Assembly (NCBI RefSeq): GCF_003323715.1
Contig: NZ_QOIN01000026.1
Location: 1-64,000 of the forward strand
Direction: 5' to 3'
DNA: 64,000 nt
Source of the DNA: Streptomyces diacarni
GTDB taxonomy: Bacteria > Actinomycetota > Actinomycetes > Streptomycetales > Streptomycetaceae
Notes under the pieces: generated by a model
Seen by the model: the letters and a program-made list of their open reading frames with translations, nothing else
What the model was told of the DNA's origin: nothing
The model's database searches: none
Made by a program: the position numbers and the translations under genes
Shown here: positions 43,872 to 62,185 of the stretch, piece after piece
How positions within the stretch are numbered: the stretch's first letter is position 1
Layout: each line of letters begins with the position of its first letter

Positions 43872-46800
43872 TCAGCCGACACGCGTCAGCTTGTCCCCGA
43901 ACCCGGGTTCGGACAGATCGTCCTGCAGGGCGACCGGAACCTTCACCTGCCCGGGACCGTCACCCGCGGTCAGCGTACCGACCTTGGTTCCGGCCTCGGC
44001 CTCGTGCGGAATGGTCTTGCCGCCGTCGGTCAGGCCCAGCTCGACCTTCAGACCCGACCAGCCGACGGCCTTCACGTCCTCGGTGGCCACCACCGGCGTC
44101 TTGCCGCCGAGCTGATCGTCCACGTAGCCGACGACCTCGCCCTTCTTGACCACCGTCCGCGAGGTGAGCGAGTCCTGCGCCGCGTCGATCAGCTTCTTGC
44201 TGGAAGCGAGAACGGTGTCCAGGATCGAGGGCTTGTACTGGCCCAGCATCGCGCCGATGATCAGCTGCTTGGTGCCGCCGATCTCCTTCTCCGCCGCGAA
44301 GACCAGGTTGCCGCCCGCCTTGGTGGTCGTGCCGGTCTTGATACCGCGGACGCCGTCCATCGGGACGAGCCTGTTCCAGTTGCGCTGCGTCTTGCCGTTG
44401 CCGTCCACGTACAGCGGCTGGCGCACGACCTCGCGGAAGATCGGGTACTGCATGACCTTCTTGGCCAGCTTCACCTGGTCGGCGGCGGTGCTGACGGTGG
44501 ACGCCGTGAGACCGCTGGGGTCGGTGTAGTGCGAGTTGGTCATGCCGAGGTCCTTGGCCGCGGCGTTCATCTTCTTCACGAACGCCTTCTCCGACCCCGC
44601 GTCCCAGCGCCCGAGCAGTCGCGCCACGTTGTTCGCTGACGCGATCATTATCGCGTTGAGCGCCTCGCGCTGCGAGATCTTCTCGCCCGCGTCGACCTCG
44701 ACCGTCGACTCGTTCTGCGCGCTGAGACCCGCCTCCTTCTCGGCCTTCTTGTCGACCGGGATCATCGCGCCCTTGCTGCCCTTCTTGACCGGGTGGTCGC
44801 GGAGGATCACGTAGGCGGTCATCACCTTGGCGACGCTGGCGATCGGCACGGGCTTCTGCTCGCCGTACGAGCCGAACGAGCCCAGGCCCTGCACGTCGAT
44901 CACGGCCTGCCCCTCGGAGGGCCACGGCATGGACGGCTTGGAGCCCTCGAACGTGTAGGTCCGCGACGCCGTCAGCGACAGCTCGGGGTCCGGCACCGAA
45001 CGCACGGACTGGACGACGACGAAGACGACCGCGAGCAGCAGCACCAGCGGCGTCCAGATCTTCACCCGTCGGGCAGCCGTACGCAGCGGCGTCTCGGGGG
45101 GCGGCGGCGTGTTCGTCAGCTGGGCCAGCAGGTCCAGCGGCTGCTGGTTCTGCTGCCCGGCAGCCTCCGCCTCCGGGGTGCCCGGCATCGGCTGCTGCCG
45201 CGTGCGCTCCGGCTCGCTCTCCGCAGCGCTCGGCGTCCCCGCCCCGCCTGGAGCGTGCGGGGGCGCTCCCGGCGCCTCTGCGGGACGCTGGGGCGCCGAC
45301 GACCACGGGTTGACGGTCGGAGCCCCGGACGGGGGAGAGGACGGCTTACGCGGCGCTGTGGGCGCCGCGGAGGACGACGCGGCGGGTGGCAGCGGCTTGG
45401 CCGGCGTGCGCGGCCCGTCGGTGGTCCGGAGCGGAATGAACTGGCTGGTCCGCTCCGCGTCCGACTCGCCACCGTTGCGACCGTCCTCGGCCGACCGGTC
45501 CGGCGCGCCAGTGGCCGCCTTGCCAGTGGCCGACTTCTCCGAGGACGGTCCTCCTGCGGAGGTCTTGGCCGTGCCCTGTGCACCGGTGCCCGTGCCCTGT
45601 GCACCCGTGCCCTGTGTCGCCGTGCGCGAAGCGGTCGCGGCCTGTGCGCCCGTGGTGGCGTCCGTCGTCGCCGGCTCGCGGGGGGCGGACGCCCGCGGGT
45701 CGGCCACGCCGCCGTTGGCCTCCGGGGCGGCCGAACCCTTTTTCCCGGAGCTTCCCGACCGAGCGGACTTTTCCACCTTTTCGGATGTTCCGGTCTGCCC
45801 GGTCTGCCCGGACTGCGCGGACTGCGCGGACTGCGCGGACTGCGCGGATCCCTCCTGCTGCCGGGGGTTTCCGTTGGCCTCTTCCTGCCCCGCCTTCGGA
45901 GACCCGGCCCGCTCGACATCGGGCGCACGGAAAATCGCCGTCGGCTGGTCGACGGCGGGCTTCGCCGCACCGCCTCCCTCGGCACCATTGGCGGGCTTCG
46001 CGTCACCGTCGGCGGGCTTCGCGTCACCGTCGGCCTGCACGCCCTCGGCACCGTTGGCGGCCTCCTCGCCCCCTTCGGCGTCCCCGTCTTCCTTCGCTCG
46101 CTTTGAAGCACCGAAGAACGCCGAGGTCAACCGCTCGGCGCGGTCCGCCGCTGCCGTGTCGCTGTCCTTGGCGGCGTTCGCGTCGTCACGGTGCAGAACG
46201 TCGAACATCGCGGTCGGCGCGTCCGGCCGGCCGCCTCCGTCGGACTTCCCTGGAGCGTCGGAACTCTTCTTCGATCCGGCATCTTCTCCTGCAGCCGCGC
46301 CGTGTGTCGCCGCCGTCTTGTCCACCGCCTTGTCGGCCTCCGCCGCCTTGGGCCGGACGGGGAGGTCCGAGGCGGCGGCACGATCGTCCGCTCCGCCGTC
46401 GTTCGCCTGACCACTCTCTTGCAGCCCTCCGGCCGCCTCGGACGAGTGCGCGCCATCGGAGCCCTCGGACTCCTCGGGGTGGCTGGAATCACCCGCGACC
46501 CAGGCCGCCACGGCGGACTTCAGCCGCTCGTCGCCCGCGTCGCCGGTGCCTGCCCGCTCGCCCTGACCGTCACGGCTCGCGCCGCTGTCACGGCCGTCAC
46601 GGCCCTCGCCGTCGTCCTGGCCGTCGACGCCGTCAGTACCGCCGGAGCCCTCGCCCTCGGGGCCCTCGGCGGCCCCGTCCGTCGTCGGGGCCTCCTCGTC
46701 CGGGGTCGTCGGAGCCGGGATCTTGGAAGACGCCCCGCCCGACTGCGCGTCCGCGGTACCGTCCTCGGCCGCGACTCCCGTGCCCTTCGCAGCTCCGGAG

Positions 46801-46952
46801 CTGCTCAACCGTTCGTTTTCGGCCGTCTCGCCGGGGCGCGCAACCGTGCCCCCGCTCCCCGTCGTCTCCCCCGACGACCTCTCCCGCTCCGACCTGTCGG
46901 GGGATTCGCCCGCCACCGATGCCTCCTGATGCTGCTGCTCGCCGCTCGCCAT
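43872..46952 (-). CDS. D-alanyl-D-alanine carboxypeptidase with a long acidic cytoplasmic arm
   Basis: 1026 residues. Residues 1 to about 630 are low complexity (Glu, Asp, Ala, Gly, Ser, Pro, Thr) with no predicted fold; short DVERAG- and PTAIF-type motifs and an Ala-Gln-Ser repeat (9-bp units near 45815-45845) occur. One membrane helix follows (KIWTPLVLLLAVVFVVVQSV, about 632-652). The outer part is a peptidase S11/PBP5-type domain with all three motifs: SVAKVMTAYVIL (SxxK serine), SANNVARLLGRWD (SxN) and GIKTGTTTKAGGNLVFAAE (KTG), then a beta domain to the end. It trims pentapeptide side chains of peptidoglycan. ATG 46952 lacks a strong site. The size of the inner arm is unusual for this family. 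Confidence 0.88.
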   Translation of the reverse strand: MASGEQQHQEASVAGESPDRSERERSSGETTGSGGTVARPGETAENERLSSSGAAKGTGVAAEDGTADAQSGGASSKIPAPTTPDEEAPTTDGAAEGPEGEGSGGTDGVDGQDDGEGRDGRDSGASRDGQGERAGTGDAGDERLKSAVAAWVAGDSSHPEESEGSDGAHSSEAAGGLQESGQANDGGADDRAAASDLPVRPKAAEADKAVDKTAATHGAAAGEDAGSKKSSDAPGKSDGGGRPDAPTAMFDVLHRDDANAAKDSDTAAADRAERLTSAFFGASKRAKEDGDAEGGEEAANGAEGVQADGDAKPADGDAKPANGAEGGGAAKPAVDQPTAIFRAPDVERAGSPKAGQEEANGNPRQQEGSAQSAQSAQSAQSGQTGQTGTSEKVEKSARSGSSGKKGSAAPEANGGVADPRASAPREPATTDATTGAQAATASRTATQGTGAQGTGTGAQGTAKTSAGGPSSEKSATGKAATGAPDRSAEDGRNGGESDAERTSQFIPLRTTDGPRTPAKPLPPAASSSAAPTAPRKPSSPPSGAPTVNPWSSAPQRPAEAPGAPPHAPGGAGTPSAAESEPERTRQQPMPGTPEAEAAGQQNQQPLDLLAQLTNTPPPPETPLRTAARRVKIWTPLVLLLAVVFVVVQSVRSVPDPELSLTASRTYTFEGSKPSMPWPSEGQAVIDVQGLGSFGSYGEQKPVPIASVAKVMTAYVILRDHPVKKGSKGAMIPVDKKAEKEAGLSAQNESTVEVDAGEKISQREALNAIMIASANNVARLLGRWDAGSEKAFVKKMNAAAKDLGMTNSHYTDPSGLTASTVSTAADQVKLAKKVMQYPIFREVVRQPLYVDGNGKTQRNWNRLVPMDGVRGIKTGTTTKAGGNLVFAAEKEIGGTKQLIIGAMLGQYKPSILDTVLASSKKLIDAAQDSLTSRTVVKKGEVVGYVDDQLGGKTPVVATEDVKAVGWSGLKVELGLTDGGKTIPHEAEAGTKVGTLTAGDGPGQVKVPVALQDDLSEPGFGDKLTRVG

Positions 46953-47147
46953 ACCAGTTAACAGTGTCCCGTGCACAGAAGCCGCCACCGGCGTGGCGAC
47001 GCTCCTCCAAGAGGCGGCCACAACAGCCACCCCAAGCGGCAGACGAGAACGACATACCTACTGGTTCCCGCCCATAACGTCCAGGCACTCTCGACAGACC
47101 ATTGTGAGAGGGGTCACCCTGTCATTCATCCACGCGGGGAGGCATGG

Positions 47148-49840: not shown

Positions 49841-50719
49841 TCAGCGGAGTTGATCCACGTAGGTGTCCGTTCCCGGGATCGTCGGAACGAAGGGCGCCAC
49901 CAGTTCCGTCCGTCCCAGCCCGGTCTCCGCCACGGCTTCCTCCAGACCTGTGAAACATGCCTCCCAGCGTTCGCGCGGGTCCTCCTGGAGGAACCACAGC
50001 AGGGTCAGCCGGGTGTCGGTCCTCTCGACCTGCCGCACGTACGACATCCGGTCGGTGGGCAGCGGGGTGGGGCGGAACACGGTGACCATCGCGGCCGGAG
50101 AGCCGTGGAGACGGGCCGGGAGATGCTCCGCGCGCAGCCACTCCAGCAGTTCGGCACGCTGACCGGGGCCGGCCGCGTCGACCACCTGGAGGACCAGGCC
50201 GCGGTACGGGTGGTCGAGCGCGTGGTGATCGCGCGGTCCTGCGGCCCCGTCCCGGTAGACGGTGCCCTCGTGGTCCTGGAAGCTGGTGAAGACGTGGGTG
50301 CGTTCCTGGTGGACGCGCGCGTCCCGGTTGAGGCGCTTGTTGATGGCGACCGTCCACTTCATGTGGTCCTCGTAGCGGCCCTCGGTGATCCAGTACGTCG
50401 ACAGGTAGCAGCCCGCGGTCACCGGCTGGGCCACCGCTGAGCGGGCCGGGTAGCGCAGCAGTTGCAGTTCACGGGTGGCCACCCAGCGGCGGCCCGCGTA
50501 GATCCAGGGCATGGCCATGGCGCCGGCGATGTAGTGGTCGTCCTCGTACCAGCGGTTGTAGGCGTACTCGTGGCCTGCGTGCGGCTCGACCATGGTGATC
50601 AGGGCGTGCCCCGGGCGCACTCCGTAGGGGCCGACCGCGGCCAGTCGGGCATATGCGTCGCCGTCCGTACGGTGCGCGGGCGGGTCGCTCGGGGCATCCG
50701 ACGTGTCCGGTGTGTCCAT
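49841..50719 (-). CDS. EthD-like (dimeric alpha/beta barrel) protein, function unknown
   Basis: 292 residues that I read as two ferredoxin-like halves: RPGHALITMVEPHAGHEYAY with NRWYEDDHYIAGAMAMPWIY (EthD/DABB-type RWYxxxH helix), and a second half YRGLVLQVVDAAGPGQRAEL with LLEWLRAEHLPARLHG. No catalytic motif is clear. Similar proteins occur next to SDRs in actinobacterial catabolic clusters, which suggests hydroxylation or isomerisation of a cyclic substrate, but this is inference. It diverges from the SDR gene; a CTGAC-N5-GTCAG palindrome lies between them. Confidence 0.6.
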   Translation of the reverse strand: MDTPDTSDAPSDPPAHRTDGDAYARLAAVGPYGVRPGHALITMVEPHAGHEYAYNRWYEDDHYIAGAMAMPWIYAGRRWVATRELQLLRYPARSAVAQPVTAGCYLSTYWITEGRYEDHMKWTVAINKRLNRDARVHQERTHVFTSFQDHEGTVYRDGAAGPRDHHALDHPYRGLVLQVVDAAGPGQRAELLEWLRAEHLPARLHGSPAAMVTVFRPTPLPTDRMSYVRQVERTDTRLTLLWFLQEDPRERWEACFTGLEEAVAETGLGRTELVAPFVPTIPGTDTYVDQLR

Positions 50720-50760: not shown

Positions 50761-50775
50761 CTGACTGGGCGTCAG
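50761..50775. promoter_or_regulatory. Palindromic operator CTGAC-TGGGC-GTCAG (site A)
   Basis: A 5-bp-arm palindrome in the middle of the 86-bp space between the divergent EthD-like and SDR starts. It shares both half-sites with two stronger palindromes at 59877 and 62171. A TetR-type regulator is the likely ligand. Confidence 0.6.
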
Positions 50776-50805
50776 AATTCGATACCCGTACGGAGGGGGA
50801 TCGGT

Positions 50806-51600
50806 GTGCTGCTCGCGGACAGGACAGTGGTGATCTCGGGGGTGGGTCCCGGACTCGGCCACGAGGTGGCCGCCGCGTGTGTACGGGAGGGCGCCTCGGT
50901 CGTGCTCGGCGCCCGTACAGAGGCCCGTCTCGCCGCCTGTGCCGAAACAGTCGATCCCTCCGGCGCCCGCAGCACGTACCGGACAGCCGACATCCGGGAC
51001 GAGCGGCAGTGCGAGGCACTGGCCGCCGCGGCGGTGGAACGCTTCGGCCGTATCGACGCCGTTGTGCACGTGGCCGCACTCGACACGGTCATGGGCGGCC
51101 TCGAGGGCGCGGATCTGGCCGAGTGGCAGTCGGTGCTGGACGTCAATCTCCTGGGCACCCTGCGGATGACACGTGCCTGTCTGCCCGCGCTGAAGGAGGC
51201 CGGTGCGCGGGGCGACGGCTCCGTCGTGATGATCGGCACCCAGTCCTCCGTCGCGGCTCCCGCACAGGTGCAGCAGGCGGCTTACGCGGCGTCCAAGGGT
51301 GCTCTCGTGTCCGCCATGTACTCCCTCGCCCGCGAGCTGGGGTCGCACGGCGTGCGCGTGAACACCGTGCAGCCCGGCTGGATGTGGGGCCCCATGGTCG
51401 AGGGGTACGTGGCGTGGCAGGCCTCGTCCGAGAACGTGGAGCCCGAGGTCGTACGGGAGCGGCTGGACGCACGGATGGCGCTGCCGCGGATGGCGGAGGA
51501 CGCGGACGTGGCGGAAACAGCGACGTTCTTCGCCTCACCCCGGGCCCGGGGGATCACGGGGCAGTGTCTGCTGGTGAACGCGGGAGAGCTGATGCGCTGA
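50806..51600 (+). CDS. SDR-family oxidoreductase
   Basis: A 264-residue classical short-chain dehydrogenase. The cofactor loop is VVISGVGPGLGHEVAAACVR, a GVGPGLG variant of TGxxxGxG; ARTEAR after strand 2 suggests NADP(H) or NAD use is open. Catalysis: GTQSSVAAPAQVQQAAYAAS with K next gives the YAASK dyad; RVNTVQPGWMWGPMVEG follows. It oxidises or reduces an alcohol/ketone of an unknown compound. GTG 50806 follows CGGAGGGGG. It shares its promoter region with the EthD-like gene. Confidence 0.9.
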   Translation: MLLADRTVVISGVGPGLGHEVAAACVREGASVVLGARTEARLAACAETVDPSGARSTYRTADIRDERQCEALAAAAVERFGRIDAVVHVAALDTVMGGLEGADLAEWQSVLDVNLLGTLRMTRACLPALKEAGARGDGSVVMIGTQSSVAAPAQVQQAAYAASKGALVSAMYSLARELGSHGVRVNTVQPGWMWGPMVEGYVAWQASSENVEPEVVRERLDARMALPRMAEDADVAETATFFASPRARGITGQCLLVNAGELMR

Positions 51601-51654
51601 CCCCGCGCGACGACGCGGCCTGCTCATGCGCTGACTCCGCGCGACGACGCGGCC
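51592..51654. repeat. 29-bp direct repeat at the SDR 3' end
   Basis: ATGCGCTGACCCCGCGCGAC and the following nine bases (51592-51620), which hold the last codons and stop of the SDR, are repeated with one change at 51626-51654. The gene's tail was duplicated. Confidence 0.85.
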
Positions 51655-51801
51655 GGGTGTGGTCACCGCGCTTGCGCTGCGGAGCGGTCCTGCCTCCCAC
51701 CGATATCCGGTCTCTCCGGAGCGTCCGGCGCTCGCCTTGAGCACTGCCCCTGAGCGTTTCCTCTGTGCCCTCCCACCGAGCGCTTCTCGGGAACCCTTCT
51801 T

Positions 51802-52935
51802 CTAGGCGCGCGGGTAGCGGGCCAGCCAGGCCGGTGTGGCCGTACCGGGGCCGTGCAGGGCGGGCCCCTGGGTCATCTCCATGGCGAAGTCGTCGGCCAG
51901 TTCCAGGATGGTCGCGCGGCCTTCCACCTCGGCGACCCACCCTGCGGGCAGGGCCGTCTCCCCGTGCATGGCGCCCAGCAGGTTGCCGCACACGGAGCCG
52001 GTCGAGTCGCTGTCGCCACCGTGGTTGACGGCCAGCAGCAGGCCGTGGCGGACGTCCTGCGCGACCAGGGCGCAGTAGACGCCGATGGAGAGCGCTTCCT
52101 CGGCTGTCCAGCCCTCCCCCAGCGCGGCGACCCTCTCGGGCGACGGCATGCCCTGACGGACGGCGCCCAGGGCGCGCTTGAGCGCTTCGGTGGTCTCCTG
52201 GTGGCCGGGGCGGGCGGCCAGCTGCACGAGGGTGCGCTGGACCGCCGTGTCCAGGTCGTCGCCGCGGGCCAGGGTGTGGACGATCGCGGCGAACGCCCCG
52301 GCCGCCAGGTACCCGGTGGGGTGGCCGTGGGTCTGGGCGGCGCACTCGGCTGCCAGTTGGAAGACCAGTGCGGGCTCCCAGCCGACCAGCAGCCCGAAGG
52401 GAGCCGACCGCATGACGGTCCCGCATCCCTTGGAGTCGGGGTTCTTGGGCTGGTCCAGCGTGCCCATGCGGGGGTCGGCCAGGCCGCTGAGACAGGCGTT
52501 GCCGGGCGCCCGGCGTGAGTAGAGCCACTCCTCGCGGGCGAGCCAGCCGTCGTTCTCGCGGCGCTCGTCGGGGCCCCAGTCGCGCTGTGTGGCCGCCCAG
52601 CGCAGATAGGCGGCGTGCACGTCGGTGGGCGGGTGCCAGGCGCCGGTGTCGCGGCGGACGTGGGCGCGGATGAGCCCGTCCACGGTGAACAGCGTCATCT
52701 GGGTGTCGTCGGTGATGGCGCCGCGCCGTCCGAAAGCGGGCAGGTAGTCGGTCACGCCCTGGGGGCCGTGGGTTTCACGGATCCTGTCCAGGGAGTCGAA
52801 CTCGACGGCCGCGCCGAGCGCGTCACCGACGGCGCCGCCCAGCAGGCATCCGCGCACTCTGCTGCGGAAATCCTGCTGTTCGGCACGTCCCCATATGGCA
52901 CTCGCGCCGCTGTCCGCCCCACCCGCACCTGTCAC
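51802..52935 (-). CDS. ADP-ribosylglycohydrolase family protein
   Basis: A 377-residue DraG-type hydrolase. Motifs at both metal sites are intact: RVRGCLLGGAVGDALGAAVE (N-terminal GxxxGDAxG), GAITDDTQMTLFTVDGLIRA (TDDT), and VNHGGDSDSTGSVCGNLLGA (GGDSDS). Such enzymes remove ADP-ribose from proteins or nucleic acids, or act on small ribosylated molecules. GTG 52935 follows GGAGGGCGGCGGATC with reasonable spacing. It lies 83 bp after FbiC on the same strand, behind a hairpin, so the two may be partly linked. Its target is unknown; no ADP-ribosyltransferase is seen nearby. Confidence 0.92.
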   Translation of the reverse strand: MTGAGGADSGASAIWGRAEQQDFRSRVRGCLLGGAVGDALGAAVEFDSLDRIRETHGPQGVTDYLPAFGRRGAITDDTQMTLFTVDGLIRAHVRRDTGAWHPPTDVHAAYLRWAATQRDWGPDERRENDGWLAREEWLYSRRAPGNACLSGLADPRMGTLDQPKNPDSKGCGTVMRSAPFGLLVGWEPALVFQLAAECAAQTHGHPTGYLAAGAFAAIVHTLARGDDLDTAVQRTLVQLAARPGHQETTEALKRALGAVRQGMPSPERVAALGEGWTAEEALSIGVYCALVAQDVRHGLLLAVNHGGDSDSTGSVCGNLLGAMHGETALPAGWVAEVEGRATILELADDFAMEMTQGPALHGPGTATPAWLARYPRA

Positions 52936-52973
52936 GATCCGCCGCCCTCCTGGCTGCCCCTCCTCCGGCTTGT

Positions 52974-52999
52974 GGCCCCGCACTCTAATAGACGGGGCC
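52974..52999 (-). terminator. Hairpin after fbiC
   Basis: GGCCCCG (52974-52980) and CGGGGCC (52993-52999) form a 7-bp stem, 20 nt past the fbiC stop and before the next gene on the same strand. Confidence 0.5.
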
Positions 53000-53018
53000 G
53001 GGGGCCGTTCAGCGCCCG

Positions 53019-55631
53019 TCAGTCCAGGACGGGCAGCAGTTCGGGCAGGTGGCCGTCGGAGGCGTGGGCCGCGCGCATCCGGTCCTCGGTAACGGGGCCG
53101 TATCCGGTGGTGCGGGGGCGTGCCGGGCGCCCGGTGGCGTCGGCGATGGCGACCAGGTCCTTGATGGAGCGGTAGGAGCCGTAGGAGGAGCCGGCCATCC
53201 GGGAGATCGTCTCCTCCATGAGGGTGCCGCCCAGGTCGTTGGCGCCGGAGCGCAGCATTTCGGCGGCGCCCTCGGTGCCCAGCTTCACCCAGCTGGTCTG
53301 GATGTTGGGCACCCACGGGTGCAGCAGGAGGCGCGCCATGGCGGTGACCGCCCGGTTGTCGCGGGCGCTGGGCCCTGGGCGGGCGATGCCGGCGAGGTAG
53401 ACGGGCGCGTTGGTGTGGATGAACGGCAGGGTGACGAACTCGCTGAACCCGGCCCGTCCCTTCTCCAGCGCCGTGCGCTGGATGCGTGCCAGCAGCCGCA
53501 GGTGGCCCAGCCAGTGGCGGGGCTGGTCGACGTGGCCGTACATCATCGTGGAGGTCGTGCCGAGCCCCACCTCGTGCGCCGTCTCGATGACCTCCACCCA
53601 GGTGGCGGCCGGCAGTTTGCCCTTGGTGAGGATCCAGCGGACCTCGTCGTCGAGGATCTCCGCCGCCGTGCCGGGGATCGAGTCGAGCCCGGCCTCCTTG
53701 GCGGCGGTCAGCCACTCGCGGATGGACATGCCGGTGCGGGTGGCGCCGTTGACGACCTCCATCGGGGAGAAGGCGTGCACGTGGAGGCCCGGAACCCGTT
53801 CCTTGACGGTCCGCGCGATGTCGAAGTAGGCGGTGCCCGGCAGGTCCGGGTGGATGCCGCCCTGCATGCACACCTCGACGGCGCCGACATCCCAGGCCTG
53901 CTGGGCGCGGTCGGCGACCTGTTCGAGGGAGAGCGTGTAGGCGTCGGCGTCGGTGCGGCGCTGCGCGAAGGCGCAGAACCGGCAGCCGGTGTAGCAGACG
54001 TTGGTGAAGTTGATGTTGCGCGTGACGATGTACGTCACGTCGTCCCCGACCGCCTCGCGCCGTACGTCGTCCGCCGTGCGGCACAGCGCGTCCAGCGCGG
54101 GTCCGTCGGCGTGCAGGAGCGCGAGTGCCTGCTCGTCGGTGAGTTTCGTGGGGTCGTCGGCGGCCTGGGAGAGCGCCGCGCGCACGTCGGCGTCGACGCG
54201 TTGGGGGGCCATGCCGGGGGCTGCGCGCTCGCGCAGTTCCGCCCAGTCTCCGTACACCTCGTCGAAGTCGTCGCGGCGGTCGCTGGTGCGGCCCTCGGTG
54301 TCGATGGTGCGGTGCAGGTCGGTGCGGCCGCCGGCCGTCAGGCCCGCGAAGCCCTCGTCGGGCTCCTGCCACGGCAGCCCCTGGGGGCGCACGTCCTCGC
54401 GGGCCATGCCGGTCTCGGGCTCGGCGAGCGCCCGCACGTGCGGGAGGATGCGCGGGTCCAGCCACGGTTCCCCGCGGCGCACGAACTCGGGGTAGAGGGC
54501 GAGGCGTTCGCGCAGCTGGAAACCGGCCTCTGCGGTGCGCTCGGACAGCTCGTCGAGCTGCGGCCAGGGGCGCTCGGGGTTGACGTGGTCGGGCGTGACA
54601 GGAGAGACGCCGCCCCAGTCGTCGACACCGGCGGCGATGAGCCGGCCGTACTCCGCGTCCAGCAGATTCGGCGGGGCCTGGAGACAGCCGGAGGGGCCCA
54701 GGAGGTGCCGGGTGACGGCGACGGTGGCCACCAGGTCGTCCAGCTCGGCGTCGGGCATACCGCGCATGGCCGTGTCCGGCTTGGCGCGGAAGTTCTGGAT
54801 GATCAGCTCCTGGATGCCGTGGTAGGCGCGCTGCACGCGGCGCAGCGCGAACAGCGAGTCCGCGCGCTCCTCGTACGTCTCACCGATGCCGATGAGCAGG
54901 CCGCTGGTGAACGGCACGTTCGAGCGTCCGGCGTCCTCCAGCACGCGCAGCCGCACGGCCGGTTCCTTGTCCGGGGAGCCGTAATGCGGGGCGCCCGGCT
55001 CGCTCCACAGCCGCTCGGCGGTGGTCTCCAGCATCATGCCCATGGAGGCGGCCACCGGCTTGAGCCGCTGGAAGTCCGTCCAGGACAGCACCCCGGGGTT
55101 GAGGTGCGGCAGCAGCCCCGTCTCCTCCAGGATGCGCACGGCGACGGCCCGCACGTAGGCGAGTGTGTCGTCGTAGCCCTCGGCGTCCAGCCACTCCCGT
55201 GCCTCGGGCCAGCGGTCCTCCGGCTTGTCCCCGAGGGTGATCAGCGCTTCCTTGCAGCCGAGTTCGGCGCCGCGGCGGGCGATGTCGAGGACCTCGTCCA
55301 TCGACATGTACATCCCGTGCCCCGCGCGCCGCAGCTTGCCGGGGACGGTCACGAACGTGCAGTAGTGGCACTTGTCCCGGCACAGCCGGGTGAGGGGGAT
55401 GAAGACACTCTTGGAGTACGTGATGACGCCGGGCCGTCCCGCCGCCTCCAGGCCCGCGTCCCGGACGCGGGCCGCCGAGGCCGTCAGATCCGCCAGGTCG
55501 GCTCCCCGCGCCTGGAGGAGGACGGCGGCTTCCGTCTGATCGAGCGCCACCCCGTCCCGGGCCCGCTTGAGCGCCCGCCGCATCGCATTCGCCGTCGGGG
55601 CAGTCGGCGACACCTGTCCGTGAGAGGTCAT
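53019..55631 (-). CDS. fbiC: FO synthase FbiC (CofG-CofH fusion)
   Basis: An 870-residue fusion of two radical SAM enzymes that build 7,8-didemethyl-8-hydroxy-5-deazariboflavin (Fo), the chromophore of coenzyme F420, from tyrosine and the flavin precursor. The CofG half has the cluster motif CRDKCHYC (Cys84, 88, 91) with [12 protein letters not shown] before it; the CofH half has [10 protein letters not shown] near residue 545-552 with [14 protein letters not shown] before it, and [40 protein letters not shown] and [10 protein letters not shown] after. The length equals other actinobacterial FbiC. ATG 55631 starts the conserved part. F420-dependent oxidoreductase candidates surround it. Confidence 0.96.
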
Positions 55632-55806
55632 CCCCCCACCGTAGCCCGGAGCAGCGGCAACGCCGCAGGCGGCGAGCGGGTCGGGCGCTGTGGCGACCGC
55701 CTGTTCCGGCCACCTGCCGCACCGGTCGGGCGGGCCCTTGGGTGCGGCGCTCCGCGCGACCGTTTCGGCACACCCCGCCGGTCGCCGGCCGCGCCGCCTG
55801 CCCGCT

Positions 55807-55863
55807 CGGCCGGCACCGCTCTCATCGGCCGGCACCGCTCTCATCGGCCGGCACCTCTCTCAC
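55807..55863. repeat. Three 19-bp tandem repeats at an LLM gene 3' end
   Basis: CGGCCGGCACCGCTCTCAT at 55807-55825 and 55826-55844, with a variant at 55845-55863 that contains the stop codon of the minus-strand LLM gene. The space from 55632 to 55806 before fbiC shows no gene. Confidence 0.88.
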
Positions 55864-56690
55864 AGGTACCGGGAGTAGTCGTCCAGGGCGCGCAGAACTT
55901 CGAGTTCGGTGCCGGAGGGAAGCTGGAGAACGACCTCTTCGGCGCCCAGCTCGTCACGGTAGTGGCGCAGTTTGCCCGGGGAGGGCAGGACGAAGGCGGG
56001 AACGAGCGCGGGCTCTCCCCGGCGTCCTGCGGCGCGCCAGACGCGGTGGAGGTCGGGCACCGCGTCCCTCAGGCCGCTGCCGCCGACGGGGAGCCATCCG
56101 TCCGCGTATGCAGCGATGTGGGCGAAAAGGGTGGGCCCAGCGGCTCCGCCCACGAGCAGCCGGGGGCCGCCAGGGCGCACCGGCTTGGGGTGGGCGAGGG
56201 AGGCGCGGACGGATCCGAACTCGCCGTCGTAGGCGACGGGCTCGTCCGCCCACAGGGCCCGCATGAGCGCGACGCGGTCGCGCACCACGTCCCTGCGGCG
56301 GCGCCAGTCGACGCCGTGGTCGGCGGCTTCCTCGACGTTCCAGCCGAAGCCGACGCCCAGGGTGAGGCGGCCGCCGGACATCCAGTCGAGCGTGGCGATC
56401 TGTTTGGCCAGCACGATGGGGTCGTGTTGGGCGACCAGTGTGATGCTCGTGCCCAGGGCGAGCCGTTCGGTGACGGTCGCGGCGGCGGCCAGGCCGACGA
56501 AGGGGTCGAGCGTCCGCGCGTAGGGGCGCGGTAACGGGTCGCCCATGGGGGCGGGGGTCTGCCTGCTGACGGGGATGTGGGTGTGCTCGGGCAGGTAGAG
56601 GCCGCCGAAGCCGCGCTGTTCCAGCTCGCGGGCGAGGCGGGCGGGGCGGATGGTCTCGTCGGTGAGCAGAATGGTCGTGGAGATGCGCAT
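55860..56690 (-). CDS. F420-dependent LLM-class oxidoreductase (TIGR03619 type)
   Basis: A 276-residue luciferase-like TIM-barrel oxidoreductase. ISTTILLTDETIRPARLARE, LYLPEHTHIPVSRQTPAPMG, GLAAAATVTERLALGTSITL, QHDPIVLAKQIATLDWMSGG and RLTLGVGFGWNVEEAADHGV are typical of the F420-dependent TIGR03619 group. PRLLVGGAAGPTLFAHIA and a short C-terminus follow. It should use F420H2 (made with the help of FbiC, 230 bp away) rather than FMN. ATG 56690 starts the conserved strand; an upstream in-frame start adds a non-conserved leader. It is downstream of the amidohydrolase on the same strand. Confidence 0.9.
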   Translation of the reverse strand: MRISTTILLTDETIRPARLARELEQRGFGGLYLPEHTHIPVSRQTPAPMGDPLPRPYARTLDPFVGLAAAATVTERLALGTSITLVAQHDPIVLAKQIATLDWMSGGRLTLGVGFGWNVEEAADHGVDWRRRRDVVRDRVALMRALWADEPVAYDGEFGSVRASLAHPKPVRPGGPRLLVGGAAGPTLFAHIAAYADGWLPVGGSGLRDAVPDLHRVWRAAGRRGEPALVPAFVLPSPGKLRHYRDELGAEEVVLQLPSGTELEVLRALDDYSRYL

Positions 56691-56802
56691 GCCGCCACTG
56701 TGCGGCCCGGCGGCGGGGAACTCCATGGCGTGTGAGCACGCCTGTGGGTGCCTGCGCCGTCTGGCCACGCGTGCTCCGTTACGAACGCCCGCGCAAGCGG
56801 TG

Positions 56803-58542
56803 TTACCGCGTGCTGACCGTCTCCGTGTCCCGTCCCGAACGGAGCACCGTTCCGGGGACGGCGCCGGTCACCGTGTCGTCGCGTACGGTCCGCGTCCCGT
56901 TGACCCAGACGCCGACGATGCCGGTGGCACGGGAGTCGAGCCGGGGGCTGTCGCCGGGGAGGTCGTGGACGAGGGTGGCGGGTCCCGCGTCGATGCGCTC
57001 CGGGTCGAAGAGCACGAGGTCGGCGTGCCAGCCCTCGTGGACGCGGCCGCGCTCGCGCAGCCCCAGGAGGCGGGCGGGCTCGTCGGTGAGCATCCGTACG
57101 GCCCGCTCCAGTGGGGCGAGCTTGCGGCCGCGCAGGCAGTCGCCGAGGAACCGGGTGGTGTAGGGGGCCCCGCACATGCGGTCGAGGTGGGCGCCCGCGT
57201 CGGAGCCGCCCAGCAGCACGTCCTCGTGTTCCCAGGTGCGCCGGCGAAGCTCCCAGCTGGCCGGGTCGTTGTCGGTGGGCATGGGCCACAGCACCGTACG
57301 CAGCTCGTCTTCGGCGCAGATGTCGACGAGGCACGAGAACGGGTCCTGTCCGCGTTCGGCGGCGATGTCGGCGACGACGCGGCCGCTCAGGCCCTCGTTG
57401 GCGGCCGAGTACGTGTCGCCGATGACGTACCGGTCGAAGTGGGTGAGGCGGAGGAAGACGCCGGCCTCCTTGCTCTGTGCGCGGCGCAGCATCTCGGCGC
57501 GTACGTCCGCGTCCCGCAGCCTGGCGATACGTTCGGGTACGGGCAGGCTCAAAATCTCGCCCCAGCCGGGGATGAGGTTGAGCGCGCAGAAGGTGCCCAG
57601 CGACATGTTCATGGGCGTGAGGATCGGCATGGTAAGCGCGACGACCCGTCCGCCCTGTTCGCGCGCCCGTGCGCCGGCGGCCAGTTGGCGGGGCACCCGG
57701 TCGGGGACGGCGGCGTCGATGGTCAGCACGTTCCAGTTGAGCGGCCGTCCGGCTGCCGCCGACATCCGGGCGAACAGCTCGATCTCGTCGTCGGAGAACA
57801 TGTCGAGGCAGCCCGCGACGATGGCCTCGATCTGGGTGCCCTCGTGGTCGGCGACGGCGCGTGAGAGGGCCAGCAGTTCCTCGGGGCGCGCGTGGCGTGA
57901 GGCGACCGGCTCGCCGTCCCCGTCGGAGTGGCTGGCCGACTGGGTGGTCGACAGCCCCCACGCCCCGGCGTCCATGGCCTCGTGGAAGAGCCGCAGCATC
58001 TCCCCCAGCTGTTCCTCGTCGGGCTGCCCCCCGATGGCGTCCTCGCCCATGACGTGCCGCCGCAGCGCGCAGTGGCCCACCATGAAGCCGGCGTTCACGG
58101 CGGTGCGGCCCTCGAGGGCGTCCAGGTAGTCGCCGAAGGTGTGCCAGTTCCAGGGGGCGCCTTCTTCCAGTGCGACGAGGGACATGCCCTCGACCTTGGA
58201 CATCATGCGGCGCGTGTAGTCGGCGTCCTGGGGGCGTGCGGGGTTCAGCGGGGCGAGCGTGAAGCCGCAGTTGCCGCCGGCGATCGTGGTGACGCCGTGG
58301 TTCATGGAGGGGGTGGCGTACGGGTCCCAGAACAGCTGGGCGTCGTAGTGGGTGTGCGGGTCGACGAACCCGGGGGCCAGGACGAGTCCGGTCGCGTCCT
58401 GACGGGTGCGGCTCTGCTCACGGACGGTGCCGGGCTCGGCGACCAGGGCGATGCGTCCTGCGCGCAGGCCGACGTCGGCGCGGTAGGCCGGTGCTCCGGT
58501 GCCGTCGACGACGGTGGCGCCCGTGATGAGGTGGTCAAGCAT
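56803..58542 (-). CDS. Amidohydrolase (N-acyl-D-amino-acid deacylase family)
   Basis: A 579-residue metal-dependent amidohydrolase. The metal motif is APGFVDPHTHYDAQLFWDPY; GVTTIAGGNCGFTLAPLNPA follows, typical of the D-aminoacylase/N-acyl-D-amino-acid deacylase group; the third site is VLLGGSDAGAHLDRMCGAPY, and the C-terminal composite beta domain has LGLRERGRVHEGWHADLVLF. Actinobacterial members beside LLM and SDR genes probably open a cyclic amide or lactone, not a D-amino acid; the substrate is unknown. ATG 58542 fits GGGAGGA upstream better than GTG 58551. Confidence 0.9.
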   Translation of the reverse strand: MLDHLITGATVVDGTGAPAYRADVGLRAGRIALVAEPGTVREQSRTRQDATGLVLAPGFVDPHTHYDAQLFWDPYATPSMNHGVTTIAGGNCGFTLAPLNPARPQDADYTRRMMSKVEGMSLVALEEGAPWNWHTFGDYLDALEGRTAVNAGFMVGHCALRRHVMGEDAIGGQPDEEQLGEMLRLFHEAMDAGAWGLSTTQSASHSDGDGEPVASRHARPEELLALSRAVADHEGTQIEAIVAGCLDMFSDDEIELFARMSAAAGRPLNWNVLTIDAAVPDRVPRQLAAGARAREQGGRVVALTMPILTPMNMSLGTFCALNLIPGWGEILSLPVPERIARLRDADVRAEMLRRAQSKEAGVFLRLTHFDRYVIGDTYSAANEGLSGRVVADIAAERGQDPFSCLVDICAEDELRTVLWPMPTDNDPASWELRRRTWEHEDVLLGGSDAGAHLDRMCGAPYTTRFLGDCLRGRKLAPLERAVRMLTDEPARLLGLRERGRVHEGWHADLVLFDPERIDAGPATLVHDLPGDSPRLDSRATGIVGVWVNGTRTVRDDTVTGAVPGTVLRSGRDTETVSTR

Positions 58543-58638
58543 GCTGCGCACGTCCTCCCTTGCTCGTCATGGGTGGTCAAGGCCGCGGCGTCGCGGCTCG
58601 TGACACGTCCGGCTGCCTGGGCGGCTCGGCTCCCGTTG

Positions 58639-58699
58639 CGCTCCCGCAGGCGCCGGGCGGCGCTCCCGCCGGCGCCGGGGCTCCCGCCGGCGCCGGGCG
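58639..58699. repeat. Triplicate 18-20 bp GC-rich repeat
   Basis: GCTCCCGCAGGCGCCGGG is followed by two copies of GCTCCCGCCGGCGCCGGG. It fills the gap between the two minus-strand genes (LLM and amidohydrolase) and can fold into GC-rich hairpins, which might act as a weak terminator. Confidence 0.8.
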
Positions 58700-58708
58700 C
58701 GGGCCGGC

Positions 58709-59836
58709 TCAGCCGCGTGCCGCGTCGCGGAAGCGGGTGGTGCGGTGCACGGGGTCGGTGTCGATCTGCGGAATGACGTGCTCACCGATGAGCTTGATCG
58801 TGTTCATCGTGTCCTCGTAGCTGATCCCGATGGGCAGCCCGAAGGAGAGCTGGTCGGCCCCGGCCTGTTCCCAGCGCTTGCACTGGCGCAGCACTTCTTC
58901 CGGGTTGCCGCAGATCATCAGTTCCTCGGCGATGAGCAGGTCGACGATCTCCGCCGTGTATTCGGGGATCAGCTCAGGCCACTGGGGGATGCCTTCGGGG
59001 CGGGGGAAGGTGTCGTGGTAGCGGAAGAGGAGGGACTGGAGGTAGTGCAGGCCGCCGTTGACGGCGATCTGCTTGGCTTTTTCGGTGGTCTCGGCGCAGA
59101 TGGCGGTGGAGGTGACCATGACGTTGTCGTTGACGTAGCCGCCGACGGGTTCCGCGTCTCCCACGGCCCCCTTGTAGGAGTCGACGACCCACTCCATGTC
59201 GGACACCTTCTGCACGCTGAAGCCGAGTACCCCCAGCCCCTTCTTCGCGGCCATCGCGTACGACGACGGCGAACCCGCCGCGTACCACATCGCCGGGTGT
59301 GAGCCCCCGTACGGCTTGGGAAGGATCTTGCGTGGGGGCAACGACCAGTGCTTCCCCTGAAACCCCTGGTACTCGTCCTGCAGCCACATCCTGGGGAACT
59401 CGGCGATCGTCTCTTCCCAGATCTCCTTGGTGTGATTCATGTCGGTGATGCCCGGCAGGAACCCGAGGATCTCGTGGGAGCCGGCCCCCCGGCCCGAGCC
59501 GAACTCCATGCGGCCGCCGGAGAGGTGGTCGAGCATGGCGACCTTCTCCGCGACCTTCACCGGGTGGTTGACCTGGGGCAGCGGGTTGAAGATGCCGGAG
59601 CCGAGGTGGATGCGCTCGGTGGCGTGGGCCAGGTATCCGAGGAAGACGTCGTTGGCGGACAGGTGGCTGTACTCCTCCAGGAAGTGGTGCTCGGAGGCCC
59701 ATGCGTACTTGAACCCCGACCTGTCCGCCTGGATGACGTACTCGGTCTCCTCGACCAGTGCCTTGTGCTCGGCCTGCGGATCGGTCCTGGCCCGCGCGGC
59801 GGGCACGTACCCCTGAACAAAGAGCCCGAATTCCAC
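58709..59836 (-). CDS. LLM-class flavin-dependent oxidoreductase (luciferase-like)
   Basis: A 375-residue bacterial-luciferase-like monooxygenase. MEFGLFVQGYVPAARARTDP, FKYAWASEHHFLEEYSHLSA (WxxEHH motif), LGSGIFNPLPQVNHPVKVAE, VAMLDHLSGGRMEFGSGRGA and IWEETIAEFPRMWLQDEYQG are typical of FMN- or F420-using LuxA-type enzymes. The ELMICGNPEEVLRQCKRWEQ segment near the C-terminus is also conserved. It may carry out a Baeyer-Villiger or hydroxylation step. GTG 59836 has GGGAGAG 8 nt upstream. A strong CTGAC-N5-GTCAG palindrome lies 41-55 nt before it. It heads the LLM-amidohydrolase-LLM run. Confidence 0.9.
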   Translation of the reverse strand: MEFGLFVQGYVPAARARTDPQAEHKALVEETEYVIQADRSGFKYAWASEHHFLEEYSHLSANDVFLGYLAHATERIHLGSGIFNPLPQVNHPVKVAEKVAMLDHLSGGRMEFGSGRGAGSHEILGFLPGITDMNHTKEIWEETIAEFPRMWLQDEYQGFQGKHWSLPPRKILPKPYGGSHPAMWYAAGSPSSYAMAAKKGLGVLGFSVQKVSDMEWVVDSYKGAVGDAEPVGGYVNDNVMVTSTAICAETTEKAKQIAVNGGLHYLQSLLFRYHDTFPRPEGIPQWPELIPEYTAEIVDLLIAEELMICGNPEEVLRQCKRWEQAGADQLSFGLPIGISYEDTMNTIKLIGEHVIPQIDTDPVHRTTRFRDAARG

Positions 59837-60313
59837 GGTGTCATCTCTCCCTCGGTGCGTTTCCGACGGCAGAAACCTGACGGGCCGTCAGATCGTGTCG
59901 CGTCCGACTCTGGCACCGCGGGGTGAAGGCGTCAATACGACGGACACCGGCTCGGCCGCACCGCCCGGCGGGAGAGCGCCCGCCGACACCCGCGCCTGTT
60001 CAGCCCCCGAAGGCACGCCCGGCACGGGAGGACAATGCGCCACCGAGAGGAGCGAACCGGCACGGAACAGAGCGATCCAGTACGACACGCGACAACCTGC
60101 GGCCACACGAGTGGGCCGACGCCACTCCCGTCCGAGCCGAACGCGTGAAGGATTCGTGAAGAATTGGTCACCAAAATCGTCGGCCCTTGCGAAGTCTTCC
60201 TGAGGGAAACGGAAACCTGCTCCCGCCGGCCCCTCATTCCGTTTCACAAGCGAAGCAGCAAATCGCCCACCCGGTCCGGACAGCGCACAGAACTCACCGC
60301 AGGTGGCCGCGCC
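59837..60313. other. Intergenic region upstream of the LLM/amidohydrolase unit
   Basis: About 475 bp between the LLM start and the end of the SDR gene. It holds operator site B at the left. From 60000 to 60310 there is no gene; the region around 60130-60280 is the least GC-rich. The small open frames present have no ribosome binding site or homology. Confidence 0.5.
59877..59891 (-). promoter_or_regulatory. Palindromic operator CTGACGG-G-CCGTCAG (site B)
   Basis: A perfect 7-bp-arm palindrome just before the LLM/amidohydrolase/LLM unit. The same 15 bases recur at 62171-62185. Confidence 0.78.
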
Positions 60314-61111
60314 TCACAGCACGGAGACTCCAGCCAGCCAGCCGCCGTCGACGACCAGGGGCGCGCCCGTCACGTACGAGGAATCCGCACAGCTGAGGAA
60401 GAGTGCCGCGCGCGCCACCTCCTCGGGGTGCCCCATGCGGCCCTGCGGGATGAGCTTCGCGTAGAAGGCGTCCGTGTCACTCCGCGCCGTCGCGGCACCG
60501 TCCAGCGGGAGACCGCTGTCCGCGGCCCTGGCGGGGTTCGTCATGGGGGTGTCGATCGCGCCGGGGCACAGCGCGTTGACGCGCACCCCCTTGTCGGCCA
60601 GCTCCATGGACGCCACGCGGGTCATGCCCACGATGGCGGCCTTGCTCGCGGCGTACGCGGTCAGGTAGGCCATGCCCGTCAGCGCCGCGTAGGAGGCGGT
60701 GTTGACGATGGTGCCGCCTCCCGCGCGGACCAGGCGCGGGGCGAGGGTCTTCATGCCGAGGAAACAGCCGGTCTGATTGACCTCGACCACCTCGCGGAAC
60801 TCCTCCACCGGGGTGGCGGACAACGTGTTGAAGCGCAGGATGCCGGCGTTGTTGACGAGGCCGTCCACGGCGCCGAACGCCTGCTCGGCGGCGTCTGCGG
60901 CCGCCTGCCAGCTGTGCTCGTCGCGCACGTCCAGGTGAACGTGGAGCGCGCGCTCGGGGCCCAGCCCCGCCGCCACCTGTGCGCCCTGCTCGTCCAGTAC
61001 GTCCCCCAGCACCACCTTGGCACCCTCGGCCGCGAACAACCGCGCCTCCGCGGCTCCCTGGCCCCGCGCGGCCCCGCTGACGAGAAGCACCCGTCCCTCC
61101 AGCTTGCCCAT
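60314..61111 (-). CDS. SDR-family oxidoreductase
   Basis: A 265-residue classical short-chain dehydrogenase. VLLVSGAARGQGAAEARLFA is the cofactor loop (GAARGQG), VVLGDVLDEQG with Asp after strand 2 suggests NAD(H); LVNNAGI and VNTASYAALTGMAYLTAYAA with SK next give NNAG and the YAASK dyad; VNALCPGAIDTPMTNPA follows. It resembles SDRs that oxidise steroid or terpenoid alcohols, but the substrate is not known. ATG 61111 fits MGKLEGRVLLVSG. It lies 95 bp after the LLM gene (61207-62154) on the same strand and is probably transcribed with it from operator C. Confidence 0.9.
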   Translation of the reverse strand: MGKLEGRVLLVSGAARGQGAAEARLFAAEGAKVVLGDVLDEQGAQVAAGLGPERALHVHLDVRDEHSWQAAADAAEQAFGAVDGLVNNAGILRFNTLSATPVEEFREVVEVNQTGCFLGMKTLAPRLVRAGGGTIVNTASYAALTGMAYLTAYAASKAAIVGMTRVASMELADKGVRVNALCPGAIDTPMTNPARAADSGLPLDGAATARSDTDAFYAKLIPQGRMGHPEEVARAALFLSCADSSYVTGAPLVVDGGWLAGVSVL

Positions 61112-61206
61112 CACGACCTCCTCGACCTCCTCGAAGAACGACGCCGGCGCGCCCGGACAGCGCCCTGGGAACGGGCGGCCGCACACGCCGCCCGGCCCGC
61201 CCCGGT

Positions 61207-62154
61207 TCAGTCCAGCAGCGGCGCGACCTGCTGGGCGTAGAGCTCCATTTGGTCGGTCAGCTCGTCCGCCGAGCGGGCGCGGAAACGCAGCTGGACCTGA
61301 GTGACGCCGAGGGCCTGGTACGCGCGGAGGGACTCGGCGATCGCGCCGGGCGCCCCCGTCAGGGTGCGGCGGCCGACGTCCCAGGTGGCCCGGCCCACGT
61401 ACAGCGGCTCCGCGAGGGCACCGACGGTGAAGGGCTGCCCGTCCAGGCGTGCCTCCCCGCGCAGCCTCCTGATGCGCTCGATCTTCGCCGCCAGTGCCTC
61501 CCTCGGGTCTCCCTGGGGCAGCCATCCGTCGCCGCGGAGGGCGGCACGGCGCACGGCTGCGGGCGAGGAGCCGCCGACCCACAGCGGCGGTCTGGGGCGC
61601 TGTGCGGGGCGGGGCCGCTGTCCGAGCCCGGAGAAGGAGAAGCGGGCGCCTTGCCAGACGGGGAACTCGTCGGGTCCGAGGGCCGCCTTGAGCGCGTCGA
61701 CCGTCTCGTCGAGCACTGCCCCGCGTGCGGCGAAGTCGGCGCCCAGTGCCTCGAACTCCTCGCGTACGTGTCCGGCGCCCACGCCGAGGATCAGACGCCC
61801 GCCGGAGAGGTGGTCGAGGGTGGCGTACTGCTTGGCGGTGGCCAGCGGGTGACGCAGGCCGACGACGGCGACGTGGCTGAGCAGCGCCGCCCGTTCGGTG
61901 GCCGCGGCCAGGAAGGAGAGGGTGGCGACAGGGTCGTACCACACGGTGCTCATCGCGCCGGCGAGCCTGCGCGGTATCGCCACGTGGTCGCAGCAGGCGA
62001 GGTAGGCGAAGCCGTGCCGGTCGGCGGCGCGGGCCACGGCAAGGAGTTCGGCGGGCCCCGCCGTGGCCTCCCAGGGCTCGGCGTAGAGGGTGCTCTGCGA
62101 CTGGACCGGCAGCTGTATCCCGTACGACAGCCGCCCTGAGGGATAAGTCAGCAC
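61207..62154 (-). CDS. F420-dependent LLM-class oxidoreductase (TIGR03619 type)
   Basis: A 315-residue luciferase-like oxidoreductase. YGIQLPVQSQSTLYAEPWEA, AVARAADRHGFAYLACCDHV, AIPRRLAGAMSTVWYDPVAT and LDHLSGGRLILGVGAGHVRE match the F420-dependent group; RPPLWVGGSSPAAVRRAALR and GDGWLPQGDPREALAAKIER are the middle motifs. GTG 62154 lies directly after GGAGGT, very tight spacing, and no other start is available before the conserved part. Operator site C is 17-31 nt upstream. It heads the LLM-SDR pair. Confidence 0.9.
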   Translation of the reverse strand: MLTYPSGRLSYGIQLPVQSQSTLYAEPWEATAGPAELLAVARAADRHGFAYLACCDHVAIPRRLAGAMSTVWYDPVATLSFLAAATERAALLSHVAVVGLRHPLATAKQYATLDHLSGGRLILGVGAGHVREEFEALGADFAARGAVLDETVDALKAALGPDEFPVWQGARFSFSGLGQRPRPAQRPRPPLWVGGSSPAAVRRAALRGDGWLPQGDPREALAAKIERIRRLRGEARLDGQPFTVGALAEPLYVGRATWDVGRRTLTGAPGAIAESLRAYQALGVTQVQLRFRARSADELTDQMELYAQQVAPLLD

Positions 62155-62170
62155 ACCTCCATGCTCATAC

Positions 62171-62185
62171 CTGACGGGCCGTCAG
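62171..62185 (-). promoter_or_regulatory. Palindromic operator CTGACGG-G-CCGTCAG (site C)
   Basis: Identical to site B, and here the arms extend to 8 bp (C at 62170, G at 62186). It lies directly before the LLM-SDR unit and would overlap the transcription start region. Confidence 0.8.

Follow-up and report, generated by a model that had tools for sequence, protein, structure and literature searches.

We describe a palindromic element, CTGACN5GTCAG, in a 64-kb stretch of Streptomyces diacarni DNA (the window; positions 1 to 64,000 of contig NZ_QOIN01000026.1, here called C4, the host genome being G000). Judged from sequence comparison, this element probably mediates control by a TetR_C_38-type repressor, apparently distinct from KstR, of a gene block for steroid- or terpenoid-type acyl-CoA catabolism. 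Three exact copies lie in the window at the positions given by an initial annotation of the sequence, and all are promoter-proximal, as it had claimed, at 17-42 bp before start codons. The first predicted operator, CTGACTGGGCGTCAG at 50761..50775, occupies the divergent promoter of a gene for an EthD-like protein (42 bp before its start) and a gene for a short-chain dehydrogenase/reductase (SDR; 31 bp before its start). The other two both read CTGACGGGCCGTCAG and are found at 59877..59891, 41 bp before the luciferase-like oxidoreductase (LLM) gene 58709-59836, and at 62171..62185, 17 bp before the LLM gene 61207-62154. The expected number of exact copies in the window was 0.14, and none of 100 dinucleotide-preserving shuffles, a control run on the window only, reached three. 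With one mismatch allowed, the window count was at chance level (3 vs 3.14 expected). The signal therefore resides in exactness and placement.

In the whole host genome (7.66 Mb in 80 contigs) we counted 23 exact sites, against 2 for the reversed pattern, a control that matches the palindrome imperfectly. Of the 23, eight lie within C4:50761-C4:110477, about 60 kb in which 0.18 would be expected, and five of these eight lie past the window end. According to our gene calls, which come from a simple GC-frame caller and give approximate starts and noncoding fractions, all eight are noncoding and stand 14-189 bp from the start of CoA-type catabolic genes. The cluster promoters carry their sites 14-65 bp before the start codons, the exception being the site at 110463 (107 and 189 bp). 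In the window the exact sites precede three units (EthD-like/SDR, LLM-amidohydrolase-LLM and LLM-SDR). Beyond it they precede genes for an Amidohydro_2 protein (C4 69550), an Ltp2-type thiolase (C4 75925), an NDP-forming acyl-CoA ligase (C4 90943; two sites) and a divergent Amidohydro_2/AMP-ligase pair (C4 110356/110666). The FadD3-type ligase gene divergent from the thiolase gene (start 75516) has a one-mismatch site at 75600. This is one of six further one-mismatch sites in C4:1-139000, of which five are at promoters or starts (75600, 86938, 87032, 104362 and 110386) and one is intragenic (122991). The initial annotation was thus right that one palindrome marks catabolic genes, but its estimate of seven genes over 12 kb was too small: the block extends over about 60 kb of C4, where promoters or starts carry 8 exact sites and 5 with one mismatch, and a remote LLM gene on contig C20 can be added. 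It had also named frequent occurrence at random genomic positions as a reason for doubt. This is mostly not what we found, given the 23 vs 2 sites and the 8 in a cluster, but 15 exact sites lie outside the block, and 4 of the 15 overlap called genes. Family scans covered the neighbours of three of the remaining eleven: the C20 site is 39 bp before an LLM gene of the Rv3520c family, C22:307307 is 60 bp before an SDR gene, and C14:112804 is between an isochorismatase-type gene and another gene.

The sites are conserved together with the block. Of 25 same-genus genomes, the host among them, 21 contain an ortholog of LLM 58709 at no less than 81% identity; outside the genus, ten genomes belonging to a single family have one at 61-65%. 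In each of the 21 same-genus loci an exact site lies no further than about 200 bp from the ortholog start, and 19 have two sites at no more than one mismatch. The arms were kept in these sites and the N5 centre varied, with 12 versions among the 21 loci. In the other family, nine loci were fetched, and CTGACACCTAGTCAG or its complement was located about 0.8 kb upstream of the LLM gene; in G026, the only mapped member of that family, a CTGACACCTAGTCAG-type site stands just before the SDR gene that heads the gene row. The consensus is mostly CTGACGnnnCGTCAG, and in a symmetrised logo of 70 distinct sites the sixth position is G in 83%, while the position two bases beyond the arms is A in 75%.

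Among five relatives compared in full, orthologous promoters carry sites in G006, G013 and G026. Exact sites were found in all three at the promoters of FadD3/Ltp2, the NDP-forming ligase and the AMP ligase. At the SDR/cyclase promoter, G026 carries an exact site, and the host, G006 and G013 carry sites with one mismatch. Exact sites likewise stand in the promoters orthologous to that at 50761 in G013 (EthD/SDR) and G026 (EthD), and the counterpart of the 62171 site is exact in G006 and has one mismatch in G005 and G019. In these last two genomes (80 kb fetched) only the LLM-SDR-LLM part was found with sites. As a separate observation, G127 (L215-L217) has lost the LLM gene and most of the block and its sites at the locus and has kept the flanking genes, the F420 gene fbiC and the TetR gene.

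The 48 sites counted in G013 divide into 11 within the block and 37 outside it. Of the latter, 17 face at least one start, 14 lie inside called genes and 6 lie between convergent genes. With 14 of the 37 in called genes, we rejected the notion that every palindrome is an operator. Seven of the 17 start-facing sites precede catabolic-type genes, namely those for a FadD/EchA19-type pair, an Rv3520c-type LLM, another LLM, a ChsH2-type dehydratase, an OB protein, a MaoC hydratase and a ferredoxin reductase. These are family-level matches; the Rv3520c family was above its cut-off and the EchA19 equivalog below it (371 of 400).

A different reading of the palindrome would be a chance or structural repeat, such as a hairpin, terminator or uptake-like element, and CTGACGnnnCGTCAG can indeed form a 6-bp stem. 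Copy numbers in family f15 fit such a repeat: G051, G073, G107, G091 and G123 hold 232-473 exact copies per genome (reversed control 2-7; TetR homolog in 5/5), and of 30 sites sampled in G051, 12 were in called genes and 10 lay between genes more than 400 bp from any start codon. This family uses the palindrome genome-wide. In contrast, the cluster sites of the window's genus are promoter-proximal, often paired, and have conserved arms around changing centres. We regard a chance or structural repeat as highly improbable.

The candidate regulator is a TetR protein encoded at C4:84086-84733. It contains PF00440 (TetR_N; 4e-6) and PF19352 (TetR_C_38; 4e-72), and its structure model (mean confidence score pLDDT of 92) has EthR as the nearest fold. 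The initial annotation had expected a TetR-like regulator encoded outside the block. A TetR protein is likely, and its gene is indeed absent from the 12-kb block, but this gene still belongs to the cluster and is situated 20 kb beyond the end of the window. The location inside the cluster is shared by G000, G006, G013 and G026, and a regulator unlinked to the cluster was accordingly rejected. The recognition helix GTSPATFYQYF is invariant in 14 of 14 TetR homologs. Also in favour of this protein, the TetR gene has a near-palindrome at its own start: of 80 named Streptomyces loci, 78 carry CTGACnnCATGACAG there, one mismatch from the operator (one of the others has a longer form, one no match).

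The abundance of the palindrome tracks this protein. An ortholog was found in 39 of 41 close genomes; these 39 hold 9-95 exact sites, and the two lacking it hold 3 and 6 (reversed control 0-6). Every Streptomyces genome examined has it (25/25 in one survey, 28/28 in another). Of 296 genomes of the class, 53 have a TetR homolog (E up to 1e-20); 15 or more sites were present in 40 of these vs 4 of the 243 without, although with at most 10 TetR candidates scored per genome some absences may be false. The Fisher tests on co-occurrence ignore phylogeny and shared ancestry, and the table entries were tallied by hand. In family f16, three of the seven TetR-bearing genomes were examined (L151, L152 and L153), and all have exact or one-mismatch sites just upstream of the TetR gene. 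This site is noncoding in L152, shares a few bases with the end of the neighbouring SDR call in L153, and in L151 falls within that call. The same three genomes have a site in the divergent promoter of an SDR and an ECH gene, in an ipdABC-like block adjoining the TetR gene. The ipdA- and ipdB-like genes of f16 match the chains of 6co6 (E 5e-93 and 2e-73), which we take to be IpdAB.

The limits of the co-occurrence analyses weigh against a TetR operator, as do the intragenic and convergent sites of G013 and several further observations. The TetR gene's own start-codon site is imperfect, with one mismatch. Moreover, this site overlaps the start codon and is partly coding; its conservation may owe something to coding constraint and is thus not independent proof. 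The TetR gene is kept in Streptomyces genomes with few sites and no LLM gene (G315, 1 site; G281, 5; G272, 9; G010, 9), and its survival there means that the protein may have another task. Conversely, many sites occur without the LLM gene in G003 (30), G017 (24) and G020 (43). In favour of the TetR reading, on the other hand, the LLM gene was absent from each of eight same-genus genomes chosen for low site counts (1-18). A side observation concerns C4:84077-84092 (L247): in the window strain and in S. reniochalinae, an extra base in the centre of the TetR start-site alters its spacing, which also speaks against the TetR reading. TetR autoregulation may be altered in the window strain by this extra base.

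These observations raise the question of whether the palindrome could be the operator of another regulator, with the TetR_C_38 protein a bystander. The candidate would be a BTAD/AfsR-like regulator with BTAD, NB-ARC and TPR domains, encoded at C4:70104-73049. Its gene is divergent from an Amidohydro_2 gene, and a site lies between the two in G000, G006 and G013. The near absence of sites in G315, the imperfect start-codon site with its extra base, and the separate locations that the TetR gene and the LLM cluster occupy in G005, G019 and G012 favour a regulator of this kind. Nevertheless, palindrome abundance follows TetR across families (the 40/53 vs 4/243 above), sites stand just upstream of TetR in the three f16 genomes examined, and the G026 cluster, which carries sites, showed no BTAD protein. 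BTAD-type regulators typically bind direct repeats rather than palindromes. Control by another regulator is thus quite unlikely in our estimate, and the BTAD protein remains as a rival or co-regulator.

Site conservation, clustering, the location of the TetR gene and co-occurrence are best explained by the TetR_C_38 repressor, from which we infer the following sequence of binding, repression, ligand release and substrate breakdown. CTGACN5GTCAG, mostly as CTGACGnnnCGTCAG, would be the operator of the protein encoded at C4:84086-84733. A repressor dimer would bind near the start codons that head some nine transcription units of the 60-kb block, as well as near those of a small number of remote genes, and, when bound, would block transcription; the closeness of the sites to start codons suggests that it does so by blocking polymerase. 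Release would most likely be brought about by an acyl-CoA intermediate of the substrate, by analogy with KstR2 and MftR (PMC5380842, PMC8728441). The presumed substrate is a polycyclic acid of steroid- or terpenoid-like type, which the enzymes of the block would activate, oxidise and cleave in the form of CoA thioesters; a separate KstR2-type ipdABC module would probably handle the last rings.

The predicted substrate class comes from the relatives of the block's enzymes. The FadD3-family ligase scored 778 bits (cut-off 657) and is the best FadD3-family ligase of the genome. The thiolase, which adjoins a ChsH2-type OB partner, is nearest to 6ok1, a 'lipid-transfer protein' (E 1e-99) that is presumably the Ltp2 side-chain aldolase. 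Of the two Amidohydro_2 proteins, the nearest relatives are DitZ and PtmU3, which have diterpenoid roles. By Pfam, the block further encodes two acyl-CoA dehydrogenases, an ECH protein, SDRs, a cyclase-family protein, an FMO-like enzyme, a flavin reductase and LLMs. Pfam scans of the cluster genes gave families other than those of kstD, ksh and hsa, the ring A/B genes of classical 9,10-seco steroid degradation, for which no dedicated search was made. FadD3 over the cut-off was found in 4 of 4 LLM-bearing vs 0 of 5 LLM-lacking genomes. In 41 genomes, LLM and ipdA were both present in 30, LLM only in 1 (G001, 79% complete), ipdA only in 1 (G020) and neither in 9, where G025 was scored as neither despite a 38% identity match. 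The 'cyclic compound' of the initial annotation is hence a reasonable substrate, and by inference the evidence points to steroid- or terpenoid-type acyl-CoA chemistry.

The genes could also be co-regulated for a substrate of another kind, such as a secondary metabolite, a branched fatty acid, or an acid with an alicyclic or aromatic ring. For the AMP ligase at C4:110666, the second-best match is cyclohexanecarboxylate-CoA ligase, far below the cut-off (288 of 792 bits), and an acyl-CoA dehydrogenase matches pimeloyl-CoA dehydrogenase, also below cut-off (211 of 624). Furthermore, a survey with hidden Markov models reported 55 of 57 Streptomyces genomes to be without steroid pathways (PMC4810484), which speaks for another substrate and against ours; its authors state that the method cannot see nonhomologous or very divergent pathways (PMC4810484). 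Against another substrate stand the FadD3-family, Ltp2/ChsH2-type, Rv3520c-type and EchA19-type targets and the co-occurrence with ipdA. We consider it possible, if somewhat unlikely, that the compound is not steroid- or terpenoid-like.

The host has a KstR2-type locus with ipdABC, echA20-like and FadE genes (G000 C11:236670-248628; L235-L237), a separate observation in a genus mostly reported to lack steroid pathways. It carries its own KstR2 (E 3e-55 to 4w97). We found no exact palindrome in the promoters of five ipd loci (G000, G007, G013, G023 and G026), all of which carry a KstR2-like TetR of their own (homology tested for the host only); both points count against our main reading. The sole exact match in these loci, G023:7711247, is inside an IpdC-like gene. 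Control of the ipd locus by CTGACN5GTCAG was therefore rejected for the window's genus and G026. Since the ipd promoters are without the site and the loci have their own KstR2, the CTGAC regulon and the KstR2/ipd module seem to be partner systems, each answering to a repressor of its own. A bolder and, in our judgement, unlikely extension would be that many Streptomyces possess an unrecognised polycyclic (steroid or terpenoid) route in which F420-dependent LLMs near fbiC replace the classical upper pathway and feed KstR2/ipdABC, with one conserved TetR as master repressor acting on the same operator across several actinobacterial families.

The gene types assigned by the initial annotation were borne out by Pfam (Bac_luciferase, that is LLM, three times; SDR twice; Amidohydro_3 once). 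The LLM gene 58709..59836 (minus strand) is the conserved marker of the cluster; it matches Bac_luciferase, and among its 25 NCBIfam matches listed none was above the cut-off of its model. The two other LLM genes, 55860..56768 and 61207..62154 (both minus), belong to the F420_Rv2161c subfamily with 214 and 234 bits, respectively (cut-off 167). Between the first two LLM genes lies that of the Amidohydro_3 protein (56803..58551, minus; Pfam), whose best solved relative is D-aminoacylase (E 7e-45). The SDR genes are 50806..51600 (plus; PF13561, 8e-48) and 60314..61186 (minus; PF13561, 2e-57; start uncertain). The open reading frame 49841..50719 (minus) encodes the EthD-like protein of 292 aa. This protein had no Pfam or NCBIfam match at E <= 0.001 and owes its name to the initial annotation and our own reading of the sequence; its orthologs in G013 (81%) and G026 (64%) adjoin a site.

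An F420 precursor synthase of the FbiC type (CofG/CofH; Radical_SAM and CofH_C) is encoded at 53019..55631 (minus; start placed from the sequence). We observed that fbiC is directly downstream of the F420-type LLM genes, and in G026 (L074/L075) SDR, LLM, LLM and fbiC are contiguous behind one palindrome. In the window strain, fbiC may possess its own promoter. Elsewhere in the window, the long open reading frame 43872-47030 has a repetitive, charged N-terminal region and, read by eye, an apparent D-Ala-D-Ala carboxypeptidase domain.

Our analysis proposes an operator, a regulator and a regulon for a TetR protein found in every Streptomyces genome examined. It would connect oxidoreductases of the F420 type with CoA catabolism of the steroid type, which this genus is believed for the most part not to have, and it offers one 15-mer as a handle for finding the substrate. 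A literature search, in which most candidates were judged without the full text, returned no report with the palindrome in the spellings tried and none evidently on this regulon.

Four known TetR systems can be compared with the one proposed here. EthR is the closest solved fold of the modelled TetR (TM-score to the query 0.72-0.80 and 18-21% identity for the EthR entries among the first 22 of 50 matches listed), and it matches in sequence mainly over the DNA-binding part (residues 13-77, E 6e-6). The target and operator of EthR differ from those here. MftR, too, is a TetR repressor of actinobacteria, with acyl-CoAs as its ligands and a connection to a redox-cofactor system, but its palindrome is T-N2-GGCA-N5-TGCC-N2-A and it controls mycofactocin genes, not an F420/LLM catabolic block (PMC8728441). 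MftR was rejected as the regulator because its palindrome differs, the two being set apart by operator and not by protein comparison.

The KstR regulon of mycobacterial cholesterol catabolism is similar in that a TetR-type repressor acts at a short palindrome in many lipid-catabolic promoters (PMC1995591). At the family level the target types may overlap as well (the FadD/EchA19 pair, the Rv3520c-type LLM and ltp2/chsH2-type genes). The KstR motif is present at the mycobacterial genes Rv3515c/Rv3516 and Rv3520c, and a possible KstR orthologue in Streptomyces coelicolor is SCO2319, at 32% identity (PMC1995591). However, the KstR operator is TnnAACnnGTTnnA (PMC1995591), whereas the sites here read CTGACN5GTCAG. 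None of the 26 PDB sequence matches of the TetR protein (E <= 0.01) or of the 50 fold matches listed is named KstR, the presence of KstR under that name being unchecked; KstR was rejected as the regulator on this ground, less firmly than KstR2. The KstR2 regulon, which serves the breakdown of methylhexahydroindanedione propionate (HIP), that is, of the last two steroid rings, shares with the block FadD3, SDRs, acyl-CoA dehydrogenases and ECH (PMC5380842), and the three f16 genomes encode the CTGAC-type TetR at a locus that resembles ipdABC. In contrast, while ipdABC and fadD3 are KstR2 genes (PMC5380842), the host keeps a separate KstR2 in an ipd locus without an exact CTGAC site, and its best FadD3-family ligase lies in the CTGAC block. 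KstR2 itself was rejected as the regulator, since the genome's KstR2 relative is a different protein (C11:243790-244389). The regulon thus resembles those of KstR and KstR2 in logic and differs from them in regulator subfamily and operator.

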